Shown here one piece after another: positions 47,548 to 57,956 of a stretch of DNA of 64,000 bases (the first letter of the stretch is position 1; each line of letters starts with the position of its first letter). The notes beneath the pieces were generated by a model. That model ran no database searches. It had not been told where the DNA came from and saw only the letters and a program-made list of their open reading frames with translations. The position numbers and the translations under genes were made by a program. Origin of the DNA: Flavobacteriaceae bacterium PS02337 (GTDB lineage Bacteria; Bacteroidota; Bacteroidia; Flavobacteriales; Flavobacteriaceae); NCBI GenBank assembly GCA_029959285.1, contig JASCOE010000011.1:176332-240331 (forward strand), read 5' to 3'.

Positions 47548-48339
47548 ATGGATGTACATTCTCTACCAGAAAAAGAAATTGTTGCTATTATCTTGTATAC
47601 GTCACTTTTTTTAATGGTTTTATCTGTAGTTCTAATCGTGTTTTTTTACTTTTCCAGAAAAAAAATTATTCAGAAAGAGTTAGAGAAAAAAGATTTAATA
47701 CTTCAATACCAAAAAGAACAATTACACGCAATTATTATAACGCAAGAAGAAGAACGTAAAAGAATTGCGCAAGATCTTCATGATGACATTAGTTCTAAAT
47801 TAAATATTGTTTCATTAAACAGCCATTTACTAACTGCGCCAAATCTTACAGAAACTGAAACTGCAGAAATTACTGGGAATATTATCGCTTTAACTACAAA
47901 AGCCTTAGATAATTCTAGAAAAATTGCTCATAATTTATTGCCGCCAGTTTTCGAAAAGTTCGGATTAAATGCCGGAGTAGAAGAGCTATGTGAAGAATTT
48001 GAAACTAGTAAATCGGTTAAAACGCATTATAAAAATGAAATCGATTTTGATGAAAAAGAAATTGATAGACATTTGCATATTTTCAGGATTCTGCAAGAAT
48101 TAATGAATAATTCTCTTCGACATGGAAAAGCGACAGAAATTTGGATTTCTTTTTCCAATGAAGATGGAATAGATACTTGTAATTATGAAGATAATGGAGT
48201 TGGTTTTGATAGCTCTAATGCTGAAAATCAGAAAGGCCTTGGTATGAAGAACATCGATAGCCGTATATCGTTTTTAGAAGGTACAATCAAAATTACGTCT
48301 GAAATTAACAATGGAATTGCAGTTAATTTTACTTTTTAG
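47548..48339 (+). CDS. Sensor histidine kinase (HisKA_3 / NarL-type)
   Basis: 263 residues. One membrane helix (~10-35), then a short coiled coil with the H-box EEERKRIAQDLHDDISSKL (His ~71). The ATPase domain follows with N-box QELMNNSLRHGKA, G1 EDNGVGF and G2 KGLGMKNIDSRI. The catalytic set is complete. It has no input domain of its own, which fits sensing through the upstream 7-helix protein. The response regulator follows 115 bp downstream. Confidence 0.92.
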   Translation: MDVHSLPEKEIVAIILYTSLFLMVLSVVLIVFFYFSRKKIIQKELEKKDLILQYQKEQLHAIIITQEEERKRIAQDLHDDISSKLNIVSLNSHLLTAPNLTETETAEITGNIIALTTKALDNSRKIAHNLLPPVFEKFGLNAGVEELCEEFETSKSVKTHYKNEIDFDEKEIDRHLHIFRILQELMNNSLRHGKATEIWISFSNEDGIDTCNYEDNGVGFDSSNAENQKGLGMKNIDSRISFLEGTIKITSEINNGIAVNFTF

Positions 48340-48454: not shown

Positions 48455-49120
48455 ATGAATGTCGCTATTAAAATTGCCCTAGTCGATGATGAAATTTTGT
48501 TTAGAAAAGGAATTTCTTTTTTATTGCAGAGAGAAGAAAATATAGATGTTCTCTTTGAAGCTTCAAATGGAGACGAGCTTATTACTCAGCTAGATAAAAA
48601 TGAAATTAAACCCGATATAATTATAATGGATTTGAAAATGCCGATTTTAAACGGTGTTGAAGCCACAAAAATTATTCGAAAATCATATCCTGACATTAAG
48701 ATTATTGCGCTAACGAGTTATGATACTAAGTCGTTTATAGCCAATATGATTCAGGTGGGTGCGGTAGCGTATTTAATAAAAAATACTACTCCAAAAGACC
48801 TAATTGTGACTATAAATGAAGTAGCCGCAAAAGGGTTTTATTACAACGAAAGTGTTTTAAAAACAATTCAGGAAACAATAGTTTCTCCAAAAAATACAAG
48901 AGGCGGATTAGACACTAATTTTCTTTCACCTCGTGAGGTTGAAATTCTTCAATTAATATGTCAGCAGAAAACTACTGCTGAAATTGCAGAACATCTTTTT
49001 TTAAGTCCAAGGACTATTGAAGGGCACAGAAATAATTTACTGCTTAAAACAGAATCCCGAAATATCGCCGGTTTGGTTGTCTATGCCATTCAAAATGACT
49101 TGGCCGATTTAACTATCTAA
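48455..49120 (+). CDS. NarL/LuxR-type response regulator
   Basis: 221 residues. The receiver has the acidic pair in ALVDDEILFRKG, phospho-Asp in IIIMDLKMP, Thr/Ser in IALTSYD and Lys in LIKNTTP. The C-terminal LuxR HTH is LSPREVEILQLICQQKTTAEIAEHLFLSPRTIEGHRNNLLLKT. It is the likely partner of the kinase encoded upstream. All active residues are present. Confidence 0.93.
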   Translation: MNVAIKIALVDDEILFRKGISFLLQREENIDVLFEASNGDELITQLDKNEIKPDIIIMDLKMPILNGVEATKIIRKSYPDIKIIALTSYDTKSFIANMIQVGAVAYLIKNTTPKDLIVTINEVAAKGFYYNESVLKTIQETIVSPKNTRGGLDTNFLSPREVEILQLICQQKTTAEIAEHLFLSPRTIEGHRNNLLLKTESRNIAGLVVYAIQNDLADLTI

Positions 49121-51912: not shown

Positions 51913-52581
51913 TTATACCAGTCCAAAATCTTTTGCAATTGCAATTAAATGGACATTATTATTAGCTTTAAAATAAATTTTTAACTTATTGATTCTCTTT
52001 TCGATGCTGCTTGTTCCATTTGGGGTAATTGACAAATCTTTAAATTCTTTTGAGATACTTTCTAAAATATATCCTTGAGATAAAAGCTTTAAAATAGAAA
52101 TGTCATACGATTCAATTTCTATCAAAGACTTATCATTAAATGTAAAAGACAAATCAGACGAAAGTATTTTTTCCTCATTATTAAATGTTGCTACAATAGC
52201 ATTTTTAAGCTCTGCAATACTATTTCTGCCTTTAGAAACATAAGCGTTTATGCCTAAATCATTAAAAAGAGATTTAATTCTATAACTTTTATCTTCTATA
52301 GAAAAAACAATCTTTTTTATGTTTGGCTGTACTTTATTAACGGCTTCAATTAATTCGTCTCCGCTTGTAAGAGTTACTTTTCTATGATCCGATTTAAATG
52401 ATAAATCAGTTATTAGTAAATCGTAAGGTTCATTCTCAAATGAAGCTTTTTTAATTTTGAGTAAACCTTCGTCGCAATATTTGACATGATGAATCACTGG
52501 GATTTTCAGTTCTTCAAGTACTTGAACTACAGTTATACTGATGCTGTCTAAATCTTCGGCAACTAAAACTTTCTTAAACAT
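51913..52581 (-). CDS. Response regulator of the triple-kinase operon
   Basis: 222 residues. Receiver: acidic pair in VAEDLDS, phospho-Asp in LLITDLSF and Lys in YVSKGRN; the Thr/Ser position reads FSIED. The C-terminal part is a diverged LuxR-type HTH (ISILKLLSQGYILESISKEF, SSIEKRINKLKIYF), so DNA binding is plausible but weaker than usual. Nine bp after the third kinase gene; last gene of the operon. Confidence 0.85.
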   Translation of the reverse strand: MFKKVLVAEDLDSISITVVQVLEELKIPVIHHVKYCDEGLLKIKKASFENEPYDLLITDLSFKSDHRKVTLTSGDELIEAVNKVQPNIKKIVFSIEDKSYRIKSLFNDLGINAYVSKGRNSIAELKNAIVATFNNEEKILSSDLSFTFNDKSLIEIESYDISILKLLSQGYILESISKEFKDLSITPNGTSSIEKRINKLKIYFKANNNVHLIAIAKDFGLV

Positions 52582-52590
52582 ATTGTCGAT

Positions 52591-54342
52591 CTATATAGGA
52601 ATTGTGAAACTTATTTTAAAACCATTTTCTTGATTTGATTCAAAATTAATAGTTCCTTTTATTGTTTTAATACGGTTTTCCACATTTTGTAGTATTTTTT
52701 TTAAAATCATATCATCTTTTTTAATTTCAGTATCATTATCAACGTAAGTTATTTGAATATTCTTTTCATATTTTTTGAAACTAATACTCGCCAAAGACGC
52801 AGTACTATTGCTTTTCATGTTTTCAAAAAGCTCTTGGAGAATTCTATAAACAGTAATTTTTTTAATTCTATCGATTTTAGACCACGAAAAGGTGTTTAAT
52901 CCATTTATGATAATATTTAGATTAGAGTTAGAATACTCAGAAACCATTTCTTTTAAAGAATCTTCGTAGTTTTTGTCGGTTAAAATGGTGCAGCTTTCTT
53001 TAGAAATCTTTCTAGTTTTAACATAAATATTATCTAAACCATTGAGTAAATCTTCTTTATTATTCGGTTTTTCAAGTTCGACGTTTTGTATATTTTTAAA
53101 TAATTTGAAAACCTCAGTGCTTAATTCTTTATGCAGTTTTTGAGAAATCCTCAATTCACTTTTAAATGCGGCTTCGTTTCTTTCTCTTTTTCCTTTTAAT
53201 GTTTTATGAATAACTAAAAAGAGTAATATGAAAACACTCAGGAAAATAATAAAATAAGAAATGTAGCTTCTGTTTTTTTGTCTTTGAAGCTGTAATTCGT
53301 TTTCGGCTTTTTGTTTTTTGAGTTCTAAATTTTCGTCTCTATCTTTTTTGAAATTATATTTTATACTAGCAAATTGATTCTTTTCTATTAATCGAGTTTT
53401 AGCAATACTATCTGTAAATTTGACATAAAGATTAGTATATTTCTTTAAATCATTTCCTGTGCTTGTTCGTATTAAGCATAACAGAGCAAATCGTTTTTCT
53501 TTATAAAAGTTGATTTCGCAAGCAATCTTATATGACATTTCAGCATATTTTTTAGATAAACTTGGATTTTTATCAAAATAATAATCAGAAAGATTGCCGT
53601 AGCTATCCGGTAATTTTTGTCTATCATTTATTTTAAGTCTGCTTTTTAGAGCTTCATTATAATAATCTATTGTTTTAGGATCGTGCAATTGAAAACTAGA
53701 AATACCTAGATTGCTTATCATAATTGCATAATCCATTAATTCATAACCTTCTAAAGTATTTGCTTTCTTTTTTTCTGCATAATATCCACTCGTTGTTATT
53801 TGAGTATAAATTTTTATTGCTTTTTTGTAATCACCTTTATGCATGTAAACGAGCGCTATGTTAGCCAATGCATTTGCTTCTCTCCTTGGACTTGCATTTA
53901 AATCGTAAGCTTTTTTTGCATATAAAAGAGCGTTGTCATAATCTTTTGTCGACAAATAATTATCTGCGAAAATTTTATAAGTCTCCCAAGCAAATCTTGG
54001 TTTTTTTAAATATTTCAGGTGAGGTAATATTTTTGTAGCTGTGATTTCGCTTTTAAGATAATTACCTTCAAATTGTTGAATAAGCGCAATTGAAACTAAT
54101 GCATCTACATAATCTATTCTATTCTTTTCTGGATCAGAAAGCTGTATTATAATTTCGTAATTCTTATAAGCCTTTTGAAATTCATTCTTATCATAATCGG
54201 CATCAGCAATAGCTGTCAGTCTTTTTATTTCAGCCGTATTGTCAATTTTAGGTGCAATCTCCTCCCTTTTCTTTTCACAAGCAGTGATAAGAAGGAAAGC
54301 AAATAGCAGAAACAAAATTTTAATAGCAGGAGAAATTTTCAT
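52591..54342 (-). CDS. TPR lipoprotein-histidine kinase C (degenerate ATP-binding site)
   Basis: 583 residues. Lipobox LITAC (Cys ~22), periplasmic TPR repeats (~35-340), one membrane helix (~357-377, ISYFIIFLSVFILLFLVIH) and a C-terminal kinase core. The H-box reads SQKLHKELSTE: His 404 is kept, but the next acidic residue of LHDE is Lys. G1 reads DNDTEI (535-540) instead of DNGxGI, and G2 reads ILQNVENRI instead of GLxNxxxRI. ATP binding is therefore doubtful. It is paralogous with the next two genes. It may be phosphorylated in trans by a partner. Confidence 0.85.
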   Translation of the reverse strand: MKISPAIKILFLLFAFLLITACEKKREEIAPKIDNTAEIKRLTAIADADYDKNEFQKAYKNYEIIIQLSDPEKNRIDYVDALVSIALIQQFEGNYLKSEITATKILPHLKYLKKPRFAWETYKIFADNYLSTKDYDNALLYAKKAYDLNASPRREANALANIALVYMHKGDYKKAIKIYTQITTSGYYAEKKKANTLEGYELMDYAIMISNLGISSFQLHDPKTIDYYNEALKSRLKINDRQKLPDSYGNLSDYYFDKNPSLSKKYAEMSYKIACEINFYKEKRFALLCLIRTSTGNDLKKYTNLYVKFTDSIAKTRLIEKNQFASIKYNFKKDRDENLELKKQKAENELQLQRQKNRSYISYFIIFLSVFILLFLVIHKTLKGKRERNEAAFKSELRISQKLHKELSTEVFKLFKNIQNVELEKPNNKEDLLNGLDNIYVKTRKISKESCTILTDKNYEDSLKEMVSEYSNSNLNIIINGLNTFSWSKIDRIKKITVYRILQELFENMKSNSTASLASISFKKYEKNIQITYVDNDTEIKKDDMILKKILQNVENRIKTIKGTINFESNQENGFKISFTIPI

Positions 54343-54368
54343 TTGGGTGTTTAAGATAATTTTGAAAT

Positions 54369-56096
54369 TTATATTGGCAGTTTTATAAAAACTTTGAAAC
54401 CGTGATCTAAAGAAGAGATGTCAACGTGCCCTTTTACAGATTTTATTCGGTCTTCTAGATTTTGTAATCCCTTTTTAAAAATGATTTTGTTTGTTCTTAT
54501 GCCTTCGCCATTATCCGTATAATTTAGATTTAGAATTTTATTTTGCGATTTAAGAGCAACGCTAATAAGATTTGCATTGCTATGATTTTTCATGTTTTGA
54601 AATAGTTCTTGCAATATTCTGTAAAGCACTATTTTTATGTTTTTATCAATTGTATTCCATAAAATAACATCAAAACCATTCAATAAAATATTTATGTTTT
54701 GAGTTTTATATTCAGAAATCATGTCTTTTAAACCCAAAACATATCTTTCGTCAGTTAGGATTTGGCTATTTTCTTTAGAAATATTTCGTGTTTTAATGTA
54801 AATATCATTTAAACTAGAAAGCAGTTTTTCTTTATTATCTATATTTTTTAAATCATTATTTTCTGCAAAAAGAAAAGTCTGATACACTTTTTTGGAAAGT
54901 TCATCTTGTAATTTGCCAGAAATTCGCATTTCGCTTTTTAAAACAATATCGTTTTTCTCTTTTTTTCCTTTTGTGATAATATAAAAAGCTAATCCAGCCA
55001 AACTGATAATACTTATAGTAATGATGATGTAAGAAATAAAACTCCTGTTTTTTTGCCTTTGGAGTTGCAATTCATTTTCGGCTTTTTGAGATTTTAGAAC
55101 CAAATTTTCTTTTTTGTCCTTTTTAAAATTAAATTTTAGAGCAGAAGATTGATTTTTATAAGTTATTCTCGCATCATTTATACTGTCAATTAGACTGATA
55201 TAGAGCTGAGAATATTTTTTTAGAGCATCACCTTCACTCCAGTTCATTAATCTAGCCAGACAATTAACTTTCATAATTGCTGCCTTTCCTTTTATAGAGC
55301 AGAAGTATGCCTTTTCTGCGTAAAACTTTGCAAGCTTTGTGTTTTTATTTCTGTTGTGATAAATAGCAAGAATATTATAGGTGCCTATTAATTCATAATA
55401 GTCATTTGTTGGCAGAATTAATTGTAAACTTTTTTCCAAACAATCAAGGGCCTTTGGATTTCCAATATTCATATAACAACAACCTAAATTGTTGTATAAG
55501 AGAGAATAATGATTTAAAGTTCTAGTAGAATCTGTTGCATGTTTTACTTTTTGCTCAACGAGAGGTTCTAACAAATGTATCGCTTCTTTGTATTTGCCTT
55601 GGTTCAAATATAGAATTGCTATATCGGCAGTTAATACCGATTTTTTGAAAGGTGTATCAGCAAGTTTTAAGGCTTTTTGATGATATAATAGAGCATTTTT
55701 GTAATCATAATTATGGCTGTAATTAAAAGCCATAATAGTATAAACGTTATAAATAAATTTTGGTTTAGAAGTCTTTTCTAAATAAGGAAGTGTTTTTGTT
55801 AGTTCTTCTTCACTTTCATAAAAATCTCCATTATTTTGTAGAATATTTGCTTTAAGAGTTAATGCGTAAACATAATCATCTGCATAATCATCAATCGGAT
55901 TACATAATGAAATGGATTTATCAAAACAATAAATGGCACTATCATTAAAAGTATCAAAATAATATTTTCCTTTATCTATAAGTTTTTTTATCTCTTTTGT
56001 ATTGTCAATTTTTTCAACGATGATTTGCTTTTTCTTTTCACAAGCAGTGATAAGAAAAAGGAAGCACAAAATTTTGACTAAATTGGAAATTTTCAT
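54369..56096 (-). CDS. TPR lipoprotein-histidine kinase B (phospho-acceptor His replaced by Gln)
   Basis: 575 residues with the same plan: lipobox LITAC, TPRs (~45-330), helix (~350-372), kinase core. The H-box reads SGKLQDELSKK: the His is Gln 397 (codon CAA at 54906-54908). N-box QELFQNMKNHSN, G1 DNGEGI and G2 GLQNLEDRI are intact, so ATP binding should be retained. It cannot autophosphorylate on the usual residue. It could phosphorylate a His-bearing paralogue in a heterodimer. 26 bp before gene C. Confidence 0.87.
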   Translation of the reverse strand: MKISNLVKILCFLFLITACEKKKQIIVEKIDNTKEIKKLIDKGKYYFDTFNDSAIYCFDKSISLCNPIDDYADDYVYALTLKANILQNNGDFYESEEELTKTLPYLEKTSKPKFIYNVYTIMAFNYSHNYDYKNALLYHQKALKLADTPFKKSVLTADIAILYLNQGKYKEAIHLLEPLVEQKVKHATDSTRTLNHYSLLYNNLGCCYMNIGNPKALDCLEKSLQLILPTNDYYELIGTYNILAIYHNRNKNTKLAKFYAEKAYFCSIKGKAAIMKVNCLARLMNWSEGDALKKYSQLYISLIDSINDARITYKNQSSALKFNFKKDKKENLVLKSQKAENELQLQRQKNRSFISYIIITISIISLAGLAFYIITKGKKEKNDIVLKSEMRISGKLQDELSKKVYQTFLFAENNDLKNIDNKEKLLSSLNDIYIKTRNISKENSQILTDERYVLGLKDMISEYKTQNINILLNGFDVILWNTIDKNIKIVLYRILQELFQNMKNHSNANLISVALKSQNKILNLNYTDNGEGIRTNKIIFKKGLQNLEDRIKSVKGHVDISSLDHGFKVFIKLPI

Positions 56097-56125
56097 TTGG
56101 GGATTTTGAAAAGGTAATTCTAAAA

Positions 56126-57850
56126 TTAAATCGGAAGTTTAATAAAAACTTTGAATCCATTATTTGGACTCGAAGAAATATCAATCTGTCCTTTTATCTT
56201 ATGAATTCGATTTTCTACATTATAAAGACCATTTTTAAATATAATTTTTTCAGTATCAATTCCCTTTCCATTGTCAGTGTAGTTAATTAAGATGTTTTTT
56301 TCGGTTTGTTTAAAATTAATTCCCACCAAAGAAGCGTTGCTATATTTTCGCATATTGACAAGCAATTCCTGTAGAACTCTATAAATTGTGATCTTTTTAT
56401 TTTTATCAACTTCATTCCAAGAAATGTTATCCAGACCGTTTAAAATCAAATTTATATTTAAAGTGCTAAAACCAGAAATCATTTCTTTGAGAGATGAAAT
56501 GTAATTTTGATCGGTTATAATAGTGCAGTTTTCTTTTGAAATATCTCTCGTTCGCGAATAAATAGCGTCTAAATTATTCAAAAGCTGTTCTTTGTTTTCA
56601 GCAAGAGATAAATTTTTGTTTTCGGCGAAAGCCATTGTATGATAAATATCGTTTGCTAATTCGTCATGCAATTTTTTAGAAATTCTTGTTTCGCTATTGT
56701 AAGCCGCTTCAATTTTCTCTCGATTAGCTTTAGAAGTTAAATAATAATATAAAATTAAAATCAAGCAAAGACTCAAAACAATAATGATGTAAGAAATAAT
56801 ATTCCTGTTTTTTTGTCTTTCAAGCTTTAATTCATTTTCTGCTTTATGTGTTTTAAGCCTTAAATTTTCTTCTTTTTCACGTTTAGAATCATATTTAATT
56901 CGAGCAAATTGGTTTTTTGCTTTTTGAGTAACTTCATAAGTACTGTCAACCAAATTGATATAAATATCAGAATTGGTTCTAAGTTCTGTACCAGAACTAT
57001 TTTTAATAATCATTTTTAAAGCAGATAATCTTCCTTCAATATAATTTCCTTTGTTGAATTCTTTGTAGCTTAGAATCATATACTTCTTTGCCAAAGAAGG
57101 ATTTTTTAATTCATATAATTGAGCGAGATGAATGTAACTTTTGCCTAGTTCATTCGGGATTTTTAGTTTTTCTCTAATTTCTAAACTTCTAGATAGATAA
57201 TCTAAACTACTGTCATAATTGTCGATTTCATGGTAACATAATCCGATATTGTCTAATAAACAGCTGTAAAATTTTTGGTCTGCAATAATTTTTTTATTGT
57301 TTTCTAAAGGGAGAAAAAGATCGAGAGCTTCGTAAAATTTTCTACTCTGCATTAATACTTCTCCAATATTATTTTTAGATGCTAATTTTTTATTAGGCGT
57401 AACATTTAGCTGTAACGCTTTTTTATGGTATAAAAGAGCATTTTTATAATCGAATGTATTTAGGTAATTAACGCCTAGAGTAGTATAAAGATTCCAGATA
57501 TTAAGTTGATTTTTTACAAGTTTTAAGTATGGTAATGCTTTTGTGATAGTAGTTTCACTTCCTGCGTAATCTTCATGATTTTGTTGAATGGAAGCCATAC
57601 GGGTCAAAGCGCTTACATAATTTTCTGGATCTTGTGTAGGAGAACAAATGAATACCGTTTCATTGTAGTAAAAAAAAGCACTGTCAAATTTATTTTTTTT
57701 GAAATAATTATCGGCAACTAAAATTAACCTATTAACTTCAGTATTATTATTCGCTTCATTTTTAATAATAATTGACTTCTTCTGGCAAGAGAAAACAATT
57801 AAAAAAGTAATTATTATATAGGAGAAAAATTGTTTTCTTTTTGGTATCAT
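56126..57850 (-). CDS. TPR lipoprotein-histidine kinase A (complete catalytic set)
   Basis: 574 residues from the ATG at 57848-57850. Lipobox VFSC, TPRs (~40-340), membrane helix (~345-370, NIISYIIIVLSLCLILILYY) and kinase core with H-box SKKLHDELAND (His 395), N-box QELLVNMRKYSN, G1 DNGKGI (526-531) and G2 GLYNVENRI. It is the only one of the three paralogues with both His and glycine boxes. First gene of the operon. A TATTTTTG box lies 4 bp before the ATG. An earlier in-frame start (57907) would put a hydrophobic stretch before the signal peptide and is unlikely. Confidence 0.9.
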   Translation of the reverse strand: MIPKRKQFFSYIIITFLIVFSCQKKSIIIKNEANNNTEVNRLILVADNYFKKNKFDSAFFYYNETVFICSPTQDPENYVSALTRMASIQQNHEDYAGSETTITKALPYLKLVKNQLNIWNLYTTLGVNYLNTFDYKNALLYHKKALQLNVTPNKKLASKNNIGEVLMQSRKFYEALDLFLPLENNKKIIADQKFYSCLLDNIGLCYHEIDNYDSSLDYLSRSLEIREKLKIPNELGKSYIHLAQLYELKNPSLAKKYMILSYKEFNKGNYIEGRLSALKMIIKNSSGTELRTNSDIYINLVDSTYEVTQKAKNQFARIKYDSKREKEENLRLKTHKAENELKLERQKNRNIISYIIIVLSLCLILILYYYLTSKANREKIEAAYNSETRISKKLHDELANDIYHTMAFAENKNLSLAENKEQLLNNLDAIYSRTRDISKENCTIITDQNYISSLKEMISGFSTLNINLILNGLDNISWNEVDKNKKITIYRVLQELLVNMRKYSNASLVGINFKQTEKNILINYTDNGKGIDTEKIIFKNGLYNVENRIHKIKGQIDISSSPNNGFKVFIKLPI

Positions 57851-57854
57851 GCGC

Positions 57855-57862
57855 CAAAAATA
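57855..57862 (-). promoter_or_regulatory. -7 promoter box (TATTTTTG) of the triple-kinase operon
   Basis: TAnnTTTG, four bases before the ATG of kinase A, which would give a leaderless or near-leaderless mRNA. Confidence 0.45.
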
Positions 57863-57956
57863 AATAATTCCAGAAATCCTGAAAGAGTATAAATACGGTA
57901 TTTTCAATTATTTTTAAATCCTCTTTTTTTTGATTCTCATTTTTAAATAAATACAA

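Follow-up and report, generated by a model that had tools for sequence, protein, structure and literature searches.

The window analyzed here is a 64,000-nucleotide stretch of the genome of Flavobacteriaceae bacterium PS02337 (contig JASCOE010000011.1, positions 176,332 to 240,331), and the system under study is a set of three tandem sensor kinase-like genes with tetratricopeptide repeats (TPRs), termed here A, B, and C, followed by one response regulator gene. All four reading frames were found to be present and intact on the minus strand in the order A (56126..57850), B (54369..56096), C (52591..54342), and regulator (51913..52581), with gaps of 29 and 26 bases between the kinase genes. The original prediction, made from the letters of the window, that A, B, and C are paralogues of one plan adjoining a single regulator was upheld: whole-length alignment gave identities of 44% (B and A), 42% (C and A), and 43% (B and C), and each protein combines a signal sequence with a lipobox-like Cys, TPRs, a coil, one membrane helix, and a kinase core (helix and lipobox read by eye). 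The start of A is most likely the ATG at 57850, as the sequence surrounding it recurs in most of the compared loci; the open reading frame list had placed it at a TTG (57907).

Catalytic motifs and domain matches of the operon

Seven residues were scored in each kinase core, and the residue numbers and motifs given for A, B, and C in the original prediction agreed with this rescoring. A, a lipoprotein-like TPR sensor kinase, carries all of them, including His395 (codon 56666-56668), the Asp that follows it, the N-box Asn, the G1 motif DNGKGI (56258-56275), and the G2 motif GLYN, and its proposed role as a self-sufficient kinase is consistent with this complete set. In B the phosphoacceptor His is replaced by Gln397 (codon 54906-54908), while the ATP-site motifs are kept (G1 DNGEGI, 54498-54515; G2 GLQN). 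C retains His404 (codon 53131-53133) and has lost G1 (DNDTEI, 52723-52740) and the glycine of G2 (ILQN). The earlier description of C as an acceptor with a poor ATP site thus stood with respect to the His and the damaged G1 and G2, but it had missed that His404 is followed by a Lys (LHKEL) instead of an Asp. The acidic residue after the His is the general base in such kinases. The acceptor site of C is therefore damaged as well, and C, impaired by its sequence at both the acceptor and the ATP site, is a doubtful acceptor. Replacement of the acceptor His, a mark of pseudo-histidine kinases, is seen in B (Gln397) and not in C (His404).

In profile searches, the HATPase_c scores were 38.0 bits for A, 21.3 for B, and 14.3 for C; the Pfam cut-off of 26.4 was passed by A alone. 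The HisKA_3 label previously attached to the cores was not recovered, since no Pfam model of the dimerization and histidine phosphotransfer (DHp) domain matched A, B, or C at E 0.1, and none was among the 25 families listed, of 27, for an alignment of 44 family members (E 0.01). The catalytic part matched the UhpB, MctS, and LiaS models in all three proteins and NarX in A and B only, all far below the cut-offs. When a profile built from 44 kinases was compared with solved structures, the best 60 of 92 matches were chiefly to TPR proteins and to the catalytic domain of VraS. The regulator has a LuxR-like C-terminus and conserved receiver Asp, Ser, and Lys sites, although its Response_reg match (26.1 bits) lies under the Pfam cut-off of 30.2; a search of solved structures with it returned no match at E 0.01. 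Of the 76 regulator rows from loci that have a kinase, more than 98% keep the usual receiver residues, as does the consensus of the five rows from kinase-less loci, and the regulator is for this reason expected to need phosphate. It is also much more conserved than the TPR part of A (mean corrected distance 0.17 versus 0.91).

Recurrent motif loss in the companion kinases

When 200 genomes of the genus were searched for the regulator, 166 gave a match at E 0.001, many of these being distant regulators. A first set of 80 stretches was composed of 79 from regulator-matching genomes and one from another place in the genome of the window; in a second scan, the best 80 of 136 relatives were kept, labeled Flavobacterium (78), Flavobacteriaceae bacterium (1), and [Flexibacter] (1). 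Because several contigs are common to both sets, counts are limited to the second set plus the window (81 loci), and 54 kinases from more distant loci of the first set served as the outgroup, whose operons usually contain a single kinase (two in L082). With fragments included, kinase frames numbered two in 47 loci, three in 21, four in two, one in five, and none in six, and 70 of the 86 neighboring kinase pairs overlap or lie no more than three bases apart. In what follows, the kinases that accompany the first kinase of a locus (A in the window) are referred to as companions. The motif counts leave out (i) the fragments L154_k1, L170_k2, L170_k3, L186_k3, L200_k1, and L200_k2; and (ii) all four frames of the disordered locus L187, including L187_k4, a full-length frame in which every motif is present. 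L126_k2 terminates within G2; it was retained and counted as lacking both functions.

The first kinase was scored in 72 of the 75 loci with a kinase frame (the contig-end copy in L154, the disordered L187, and the split kinase of L200 were excluded), and all seven residues were kept in 72 of 72, as they were in 54 of 54 outgroup kinases. The Asn that follows the G1 Asp, which is not among the scored residues, is an Asp in a few outgroup kinases (L098, L103_k1). The 88 scored companions, by comparison, fell into every class: 18 keep both the His and the ATP set, 26 the His only, 23 the ATP set only, and 21 neither. The His is thus absent in 44 companions and the full N/G1/G2 set in 47, with the His replaced by Gln (13), Ser (8), Arg (7), Asp (7), Lys (4), Glu (3), or Asn (2); at least one His-less companion occurs in 38 of the 67 loci with scored companions. 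The following acid is kept in 17 of the 18 companions that have the His and the ATP set, and is missing from 21 of the 26 that have the His only, which suggests that a retained His is often a poor acceptor. In the near relative L126, the C orthologue has an Arg for the His and the B orthologue is the copy that ends inside G2. In Flavobacterium johnsoniae strain CI04 (L156), A is accompanied by one companion, in which the His is present and the acid, N-box, G1, and G2 are altered.

Phylogeny, selection, and conserved scaffold

A tree was calculated from 259 core columns, from which six of the seven scored motif columns had been removed, with 14 of the 54 outgroup rows; this was a quick tree with the Shimodaira-Hasegawa-like approximate likelihood ratio test (SH-aLRT) as its single support measure. 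The companions form one group (SH-aLRT 99) and the first kinases another (94), the exception being the contig-end copy L154_k1, which was placed among the companions; B and C of the window both belong to the companion clade. The minimum number of changes on the tree was 14 for His versus not-His, 22 for this position by residue, nine for the acid, five for the N-box Asn, and nine for the G1/G2 glycines. These counts are independent of the root and do not themselves give a direction; as the outgroup and the early-branching companions are intact, the direction is suggested to be that of loss.

The ratio of nonsynonymous to synonymous substitution rates (dN/dS) was estimated by the Nei-Gojobori method (NG86) for 16 close locus pairs, with companion pairs restricted to those more than 60% identical over more than 300 shared codons. 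Values were 0.07-0.17 for A (16 comparisons) and 0.09-0.24 for the companions (18 comparisons), and they were equally low in companion cores with lost motifs. Bootstrapping of the cores (14 companion pairs and one A pair) gave upper bounds of at most 0.36. The highest value, 0.24, was that of B of the window versus L128, a near relative, and is due to the TPR part (0.31) and not to the core (0.06). NG86 is rough where dS exceeds 1, as it does for some values, and close pairs with dS of 0.1-0.5 gave the same picture. The companions are therefore under purifying selection despite the loss of catalytic residues. The comparison of orthologous operons that had been proposed as a check accordingly bore out selection on the frames; among the 20 loci with several companions, the motif pattern of B and C was seen in the window and L128 only.

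In the TPR part, mean identity was 0.47 among first kinases and 0.38 among companions; it rose to 0.72 and 0.55, respectively, in the coil and membrane helix, and was 0.67 and 0.55 in the core. When pairs with a core identity of 0.6-0.7 were compared, membrane helix identity was 0.65 in first kinases (1437 pairs), 0.47 in companions (715), and 0.28 in the outgroup (164); the pairs are not independent, and the difference fits, but does not prove, a packing constraint on the membrane helix that is special to the clade. Companions defective in both functions keep the coil, the membrane helix, and the E-RIS-KL--EL start, W, KKI, R--QE, and LQN-ENR positions at the 80-95% level. The second kinase of L123, a companion, was found to be a mosaic, with a TPR part like that of L134 (0.86) and a core nearest to that of the last companion of L125 (0.76), which suggests exchange of sensors or cores between arrays.

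Gene content and synteny across loci

Gene order is unchanged in 17 of the 18 loci listed for the block around the array, whose genes by reading of their sequences appear to be thrS, rplT, and crp-like, carboxymuconolactone decarboxylase-like, and exonuclease-like genes; no match to the crp-like and decarboxylase-like genes is listed for L200. Among the six loci without kinases, L177 starts at its own contig end, and the other five (L192, L194, L196, L197, and L198) have the regulator and the conserved neighbors. In these five, a stretch resembling the start region of A and the sequence upstream of it remains (best E 3e-28 to 1e-25), from which we conclude that the array was deleted there. Their regulators are 76-78% identical to that of the window, and their genomes hold a kinase 37-40% identical to A elsewhere. 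In the five loci where A stands alone (L143, L148, L180, L182, and L191), a relic of a companion C-terminus was detected before the regulator in every case (E 7e-21 to 6e-4).

A second copy of the system, with one kinase and a regulator 49% identical, is present elsewhere in the genome of the window itself (L103, contig C55). A further TPR kinase lies about 6 kb away from it, beside which no such regulator was found; both kinases keep the scored motifs. Within the window, a separate small kinase-like open reading frame (47548-48339) and a canonical LuxR-type response regulator (48455-49120) are located nearby on the plus strand.

A conserved element upstream of A

Upstream of A, an element on the minus strand (57855..57896) is conserved in the compared loci. 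It consists of GTATTTATAC (57887-57896), 24 bases, and TATTTTTG (57855-57862), the last of these ending four bases before the ATG of A. We take TATTTTTG to be a putative -7 box of a Bacteroidetes promoter; from its position, the mRNA of A would be leaderless. The sequence GTATNNATAC was detected close to where A starts in 56 of 75 loci; five of five kinase-less loci and one of 51 outgroup loci have it too, over search spans that differed somewhat. When genomes were scanned for GTATTTATAC 23-25 bases before TANNTTTG, 37 sites were found in 20 genomes of the clade versus two for the reversed pattern, and 15 of the 37 belong to this operon, judged from their position or from the gene that follows. 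The same pattern gave 24 sites versus one reversed in 20 hand-picked genomes outside the clade, and a wider pattern gave four versus two in the genome of the window. The element was considered as the regulon motif of this regulator and rejected, as its enrichment in genomes outside the regulator's clade too does not allow such an assignment.

Together with a -7-like box, the element was also observed before (i) curlin-repeat genes (L222, L223, L225, L228, and L235), with a Curlin_rpt match at the start of the L223 protein; (ii) a protein family without a Pfam match, typified by L214 (L214, L234, and L239); and (iii) an oxygenase-like protein, named by reading its sequence (L221, L232, and L241).

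Discussion

We consider it probable that A is the enzyme of this system and that the companions are mostly non-catalytic sensor subunits, which either pair with A or tune it in some other way. The catalytic lineage, that of A, and the lineage of the companions (B, C, and their relatives) would both stem from one old duplication of a TPR sensor kinase. A alone would have to autophosphorylate and to phosphorylate the regulator, and judged by its motifs it is the only kinase that appears fit to do so in every scored locus. The companions would keep the TPR sensor, the coil, the membrane helix, and the core scaffold and be free to lose the His, its acidic neighbor, and the ATP-site residues. As pseudokinase subunits they would pair with A through the coil, the membrane helix, and the DHp domain, and the input sensed by a companion would change the activity of A and shift its balance between on and off. 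In favor of this scheme are the separate clades of first kinases and companions, the intact first and outgroup kinases, the recurrent companion losses under purifying selection, the scaffold kept in doubly defective copies, the membrane helix identities, the close spacing of most neighboring kinase genes, and the heterodimers of the Fas system described below. The anatomy, the clades, the motif losses, the selection, and the synteny are results; the periplasmic place of the TPRs, the pairing with A, the direction of the effect, the ligand, and the target genes are what we infer in this scheme.

Several observations weigh against it. The companions are dispensable over evolutionary time, given the five loci with A and relics and the five without the whole array, and broken copies occur in L170, L186, and L187. 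A can be lost too, as the only kinase of L200 is split into two frames. Both the His and the ATP set are kept in 18 of the 88 companions, some of which may be ordinary second kinases. Contact between A and the companions is itself presumed. In a covariation analysis of 63 of 65 loci (L154, L170, L186, L187, and L200 were left out), divergence of the A core and the last-companion core correlated beyond seven flanking genes at r 0.12 (permutation p 0.017), which is no signal above the controls, as six flanking-gene controls span -0.21 to 0.26. The TPR parts of A and companion covary more (r 0.46), for which linkage or joint transfer could be an adequate cause.

According to the original prediction, B and C together could make up one working pair, with A as a self-sufficient kinase; in such a scheme, B would bind ATP and phosphorylate His404 of C, C would pass the phosphate on, and A would act as a separate homodimer. 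The complementary motif pattern is present in the window and L128, and FasB and FasC have been proposed to work much alike (PMC12675982, excerpt). However, the pattern was found in only two of 20 loci with several companions, where shuffling of the classes gave a mean of 2.3 and at least two in 74% of shuffles; because the frequency matches shuffling, the complementary look of B and C is best seen as the outcome of independent losses. The acid next to the His is absent in C, as in most ATP-defective companions that bear a His, the C orthologue of L126 has lost the His, and in seven of the 67 loci a single scored companion is without either function. We regard the pair as very unlikely to be the general mode; such complementation may still work in the species of the window, and it is not the feature that selection maintains in the group. 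Since A is intact in all scored loci, partnership with A offers the more general interpretation. The original prediction had named decay of redundant copies as the simpler alternative, and the many different motif losses, the broken and truncated copies (L170, L186, and L187; L126), and the relics between A and the regulator at all five A-alone loci would agree with it. Against this stand 88 companions with open frames of 550-610 amino acids, their origin as one old clade, and dN/dS values well below 1 even in cores that have lost motifs. As the losses recur under purifying selection, plain decay is highly improbable and is largely refuted for the group.

It is also conceivable that the companions do not pair with A at all. 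They might instead be sinks or docking sites for the regulator, or periplasmic binding proteins in which the core has no role other than that of a membrane anchor. The receiver keeps its usual residues, and regulator binding can persist in a pseudokinase, as DivL shows (PMC5361649, excerpt). The scaffold, coil, and membrane-helix positions are nevertheless conserved together in doubly defective copies beyond what an anchor needs, and divergence of the regulator and of the companion cores does not covary beyond the flanking genes (r -0.02; A core versus regulator r 0.14). We hold this explanation to be rather unlikely. With companions as partners of A, the loci could further be viewed as a combinatorial receptor array, in which one active kinase is joined by interchangeable co-receptors, all of them pseudokinases, with TPR sensors that evolve rapidly and undergo gain, loss, and recombination; this extension is put forward tentatively.

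Kinase heteromers and pseudokinases are already known. In plants, ethylene receptors of subfamily II have degenerate kinase motifs and work with intact sister receptors; these are plant membrane receptors with another sensor. RetS and GacS are not known to be tandem sister copies, and no tandem sister kinase is known beside DivL. The bacterial comparisons that follow draw on excerpts of the cited articles. In group A Streptococcus, one operon encodes FasB, FasC, and the regulator FasA; the two kinase-like proteins form heterodimers by two-hybrid analysis, and it has been proposed that FasB phosphorylates the His of FasC, which would itself be a pseudokinase (PMC12675982). Here, too, two or more kinase-like genes and one regulator gene form a putative operon by gene order, strand, and spacing. 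Unlike the TPR kinases, however, each Fas kinase has six putative membrane domains, with no TPRs mentioned in the excerpt, and two proteins have proposed fixed roles (PMC12675982), whereas the present system has one intact kinase and zero to three variable companions. A Fas-type division of labor, with the ATP site from one protein and the His from the other, was not conserved here (two of 20 multi-companion loci). In Pseudomonas aeruginosa, RetS substitutes for one GacS subunit at the DHp interface, so that one kinase controls another via a mixed DHp-DHp interface, but the sensor domains are different and the pair is part of a multikinase network (PMC12148439). ChrS and HrrS of Corynebacterium glutamicum are paralogous kinases that heterodimerize in their native forms, and a dead ChrS raises output; unlike here, the dead form came from laboratory evolution, and there are two paralogous systems with two regulators. 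The dead ChrS itself gave no significant heterodimer signal (PMC9491836). DivL of Caulobacter has a Tyr for the His, keeps the kinase fold, and acts on another kinase, CckA, but it reads a phosphorylated regulator and has PAS sensors (PMC5361649); the excerpt of a review added only DivL (PMC12471899). Of the histidine kinases sequenced so far, about 1% carry a substitution at the phosphoacceptor His, and only a small number of bacterial pseudokinases have been investigated (PMC5361649).

Searches of titles and the beginnings of abstracts in the open PMC literature returned no description of this operon or of a clade-wide array of an intact kinase and inactivated sisters. Half of the scored members of the sister lineage (44 of 88) are His-less beside a first kinase that is intact wherever scored, and intact and partly degraded forms occur in related species. 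The route from kinase to pseudokinase and the evolution of mixed sensor-kinase receptors thereby become directly testable in the genus, which includes laboratory strains. If the tentative view of a combinatorial array is true, each species would determine, through the dead partners it has chosen, which input reaches a single conserved regulator, and the group would offer a natural series in which the catalytic His has changed at least 14 times in a single lineage of sister kinases.

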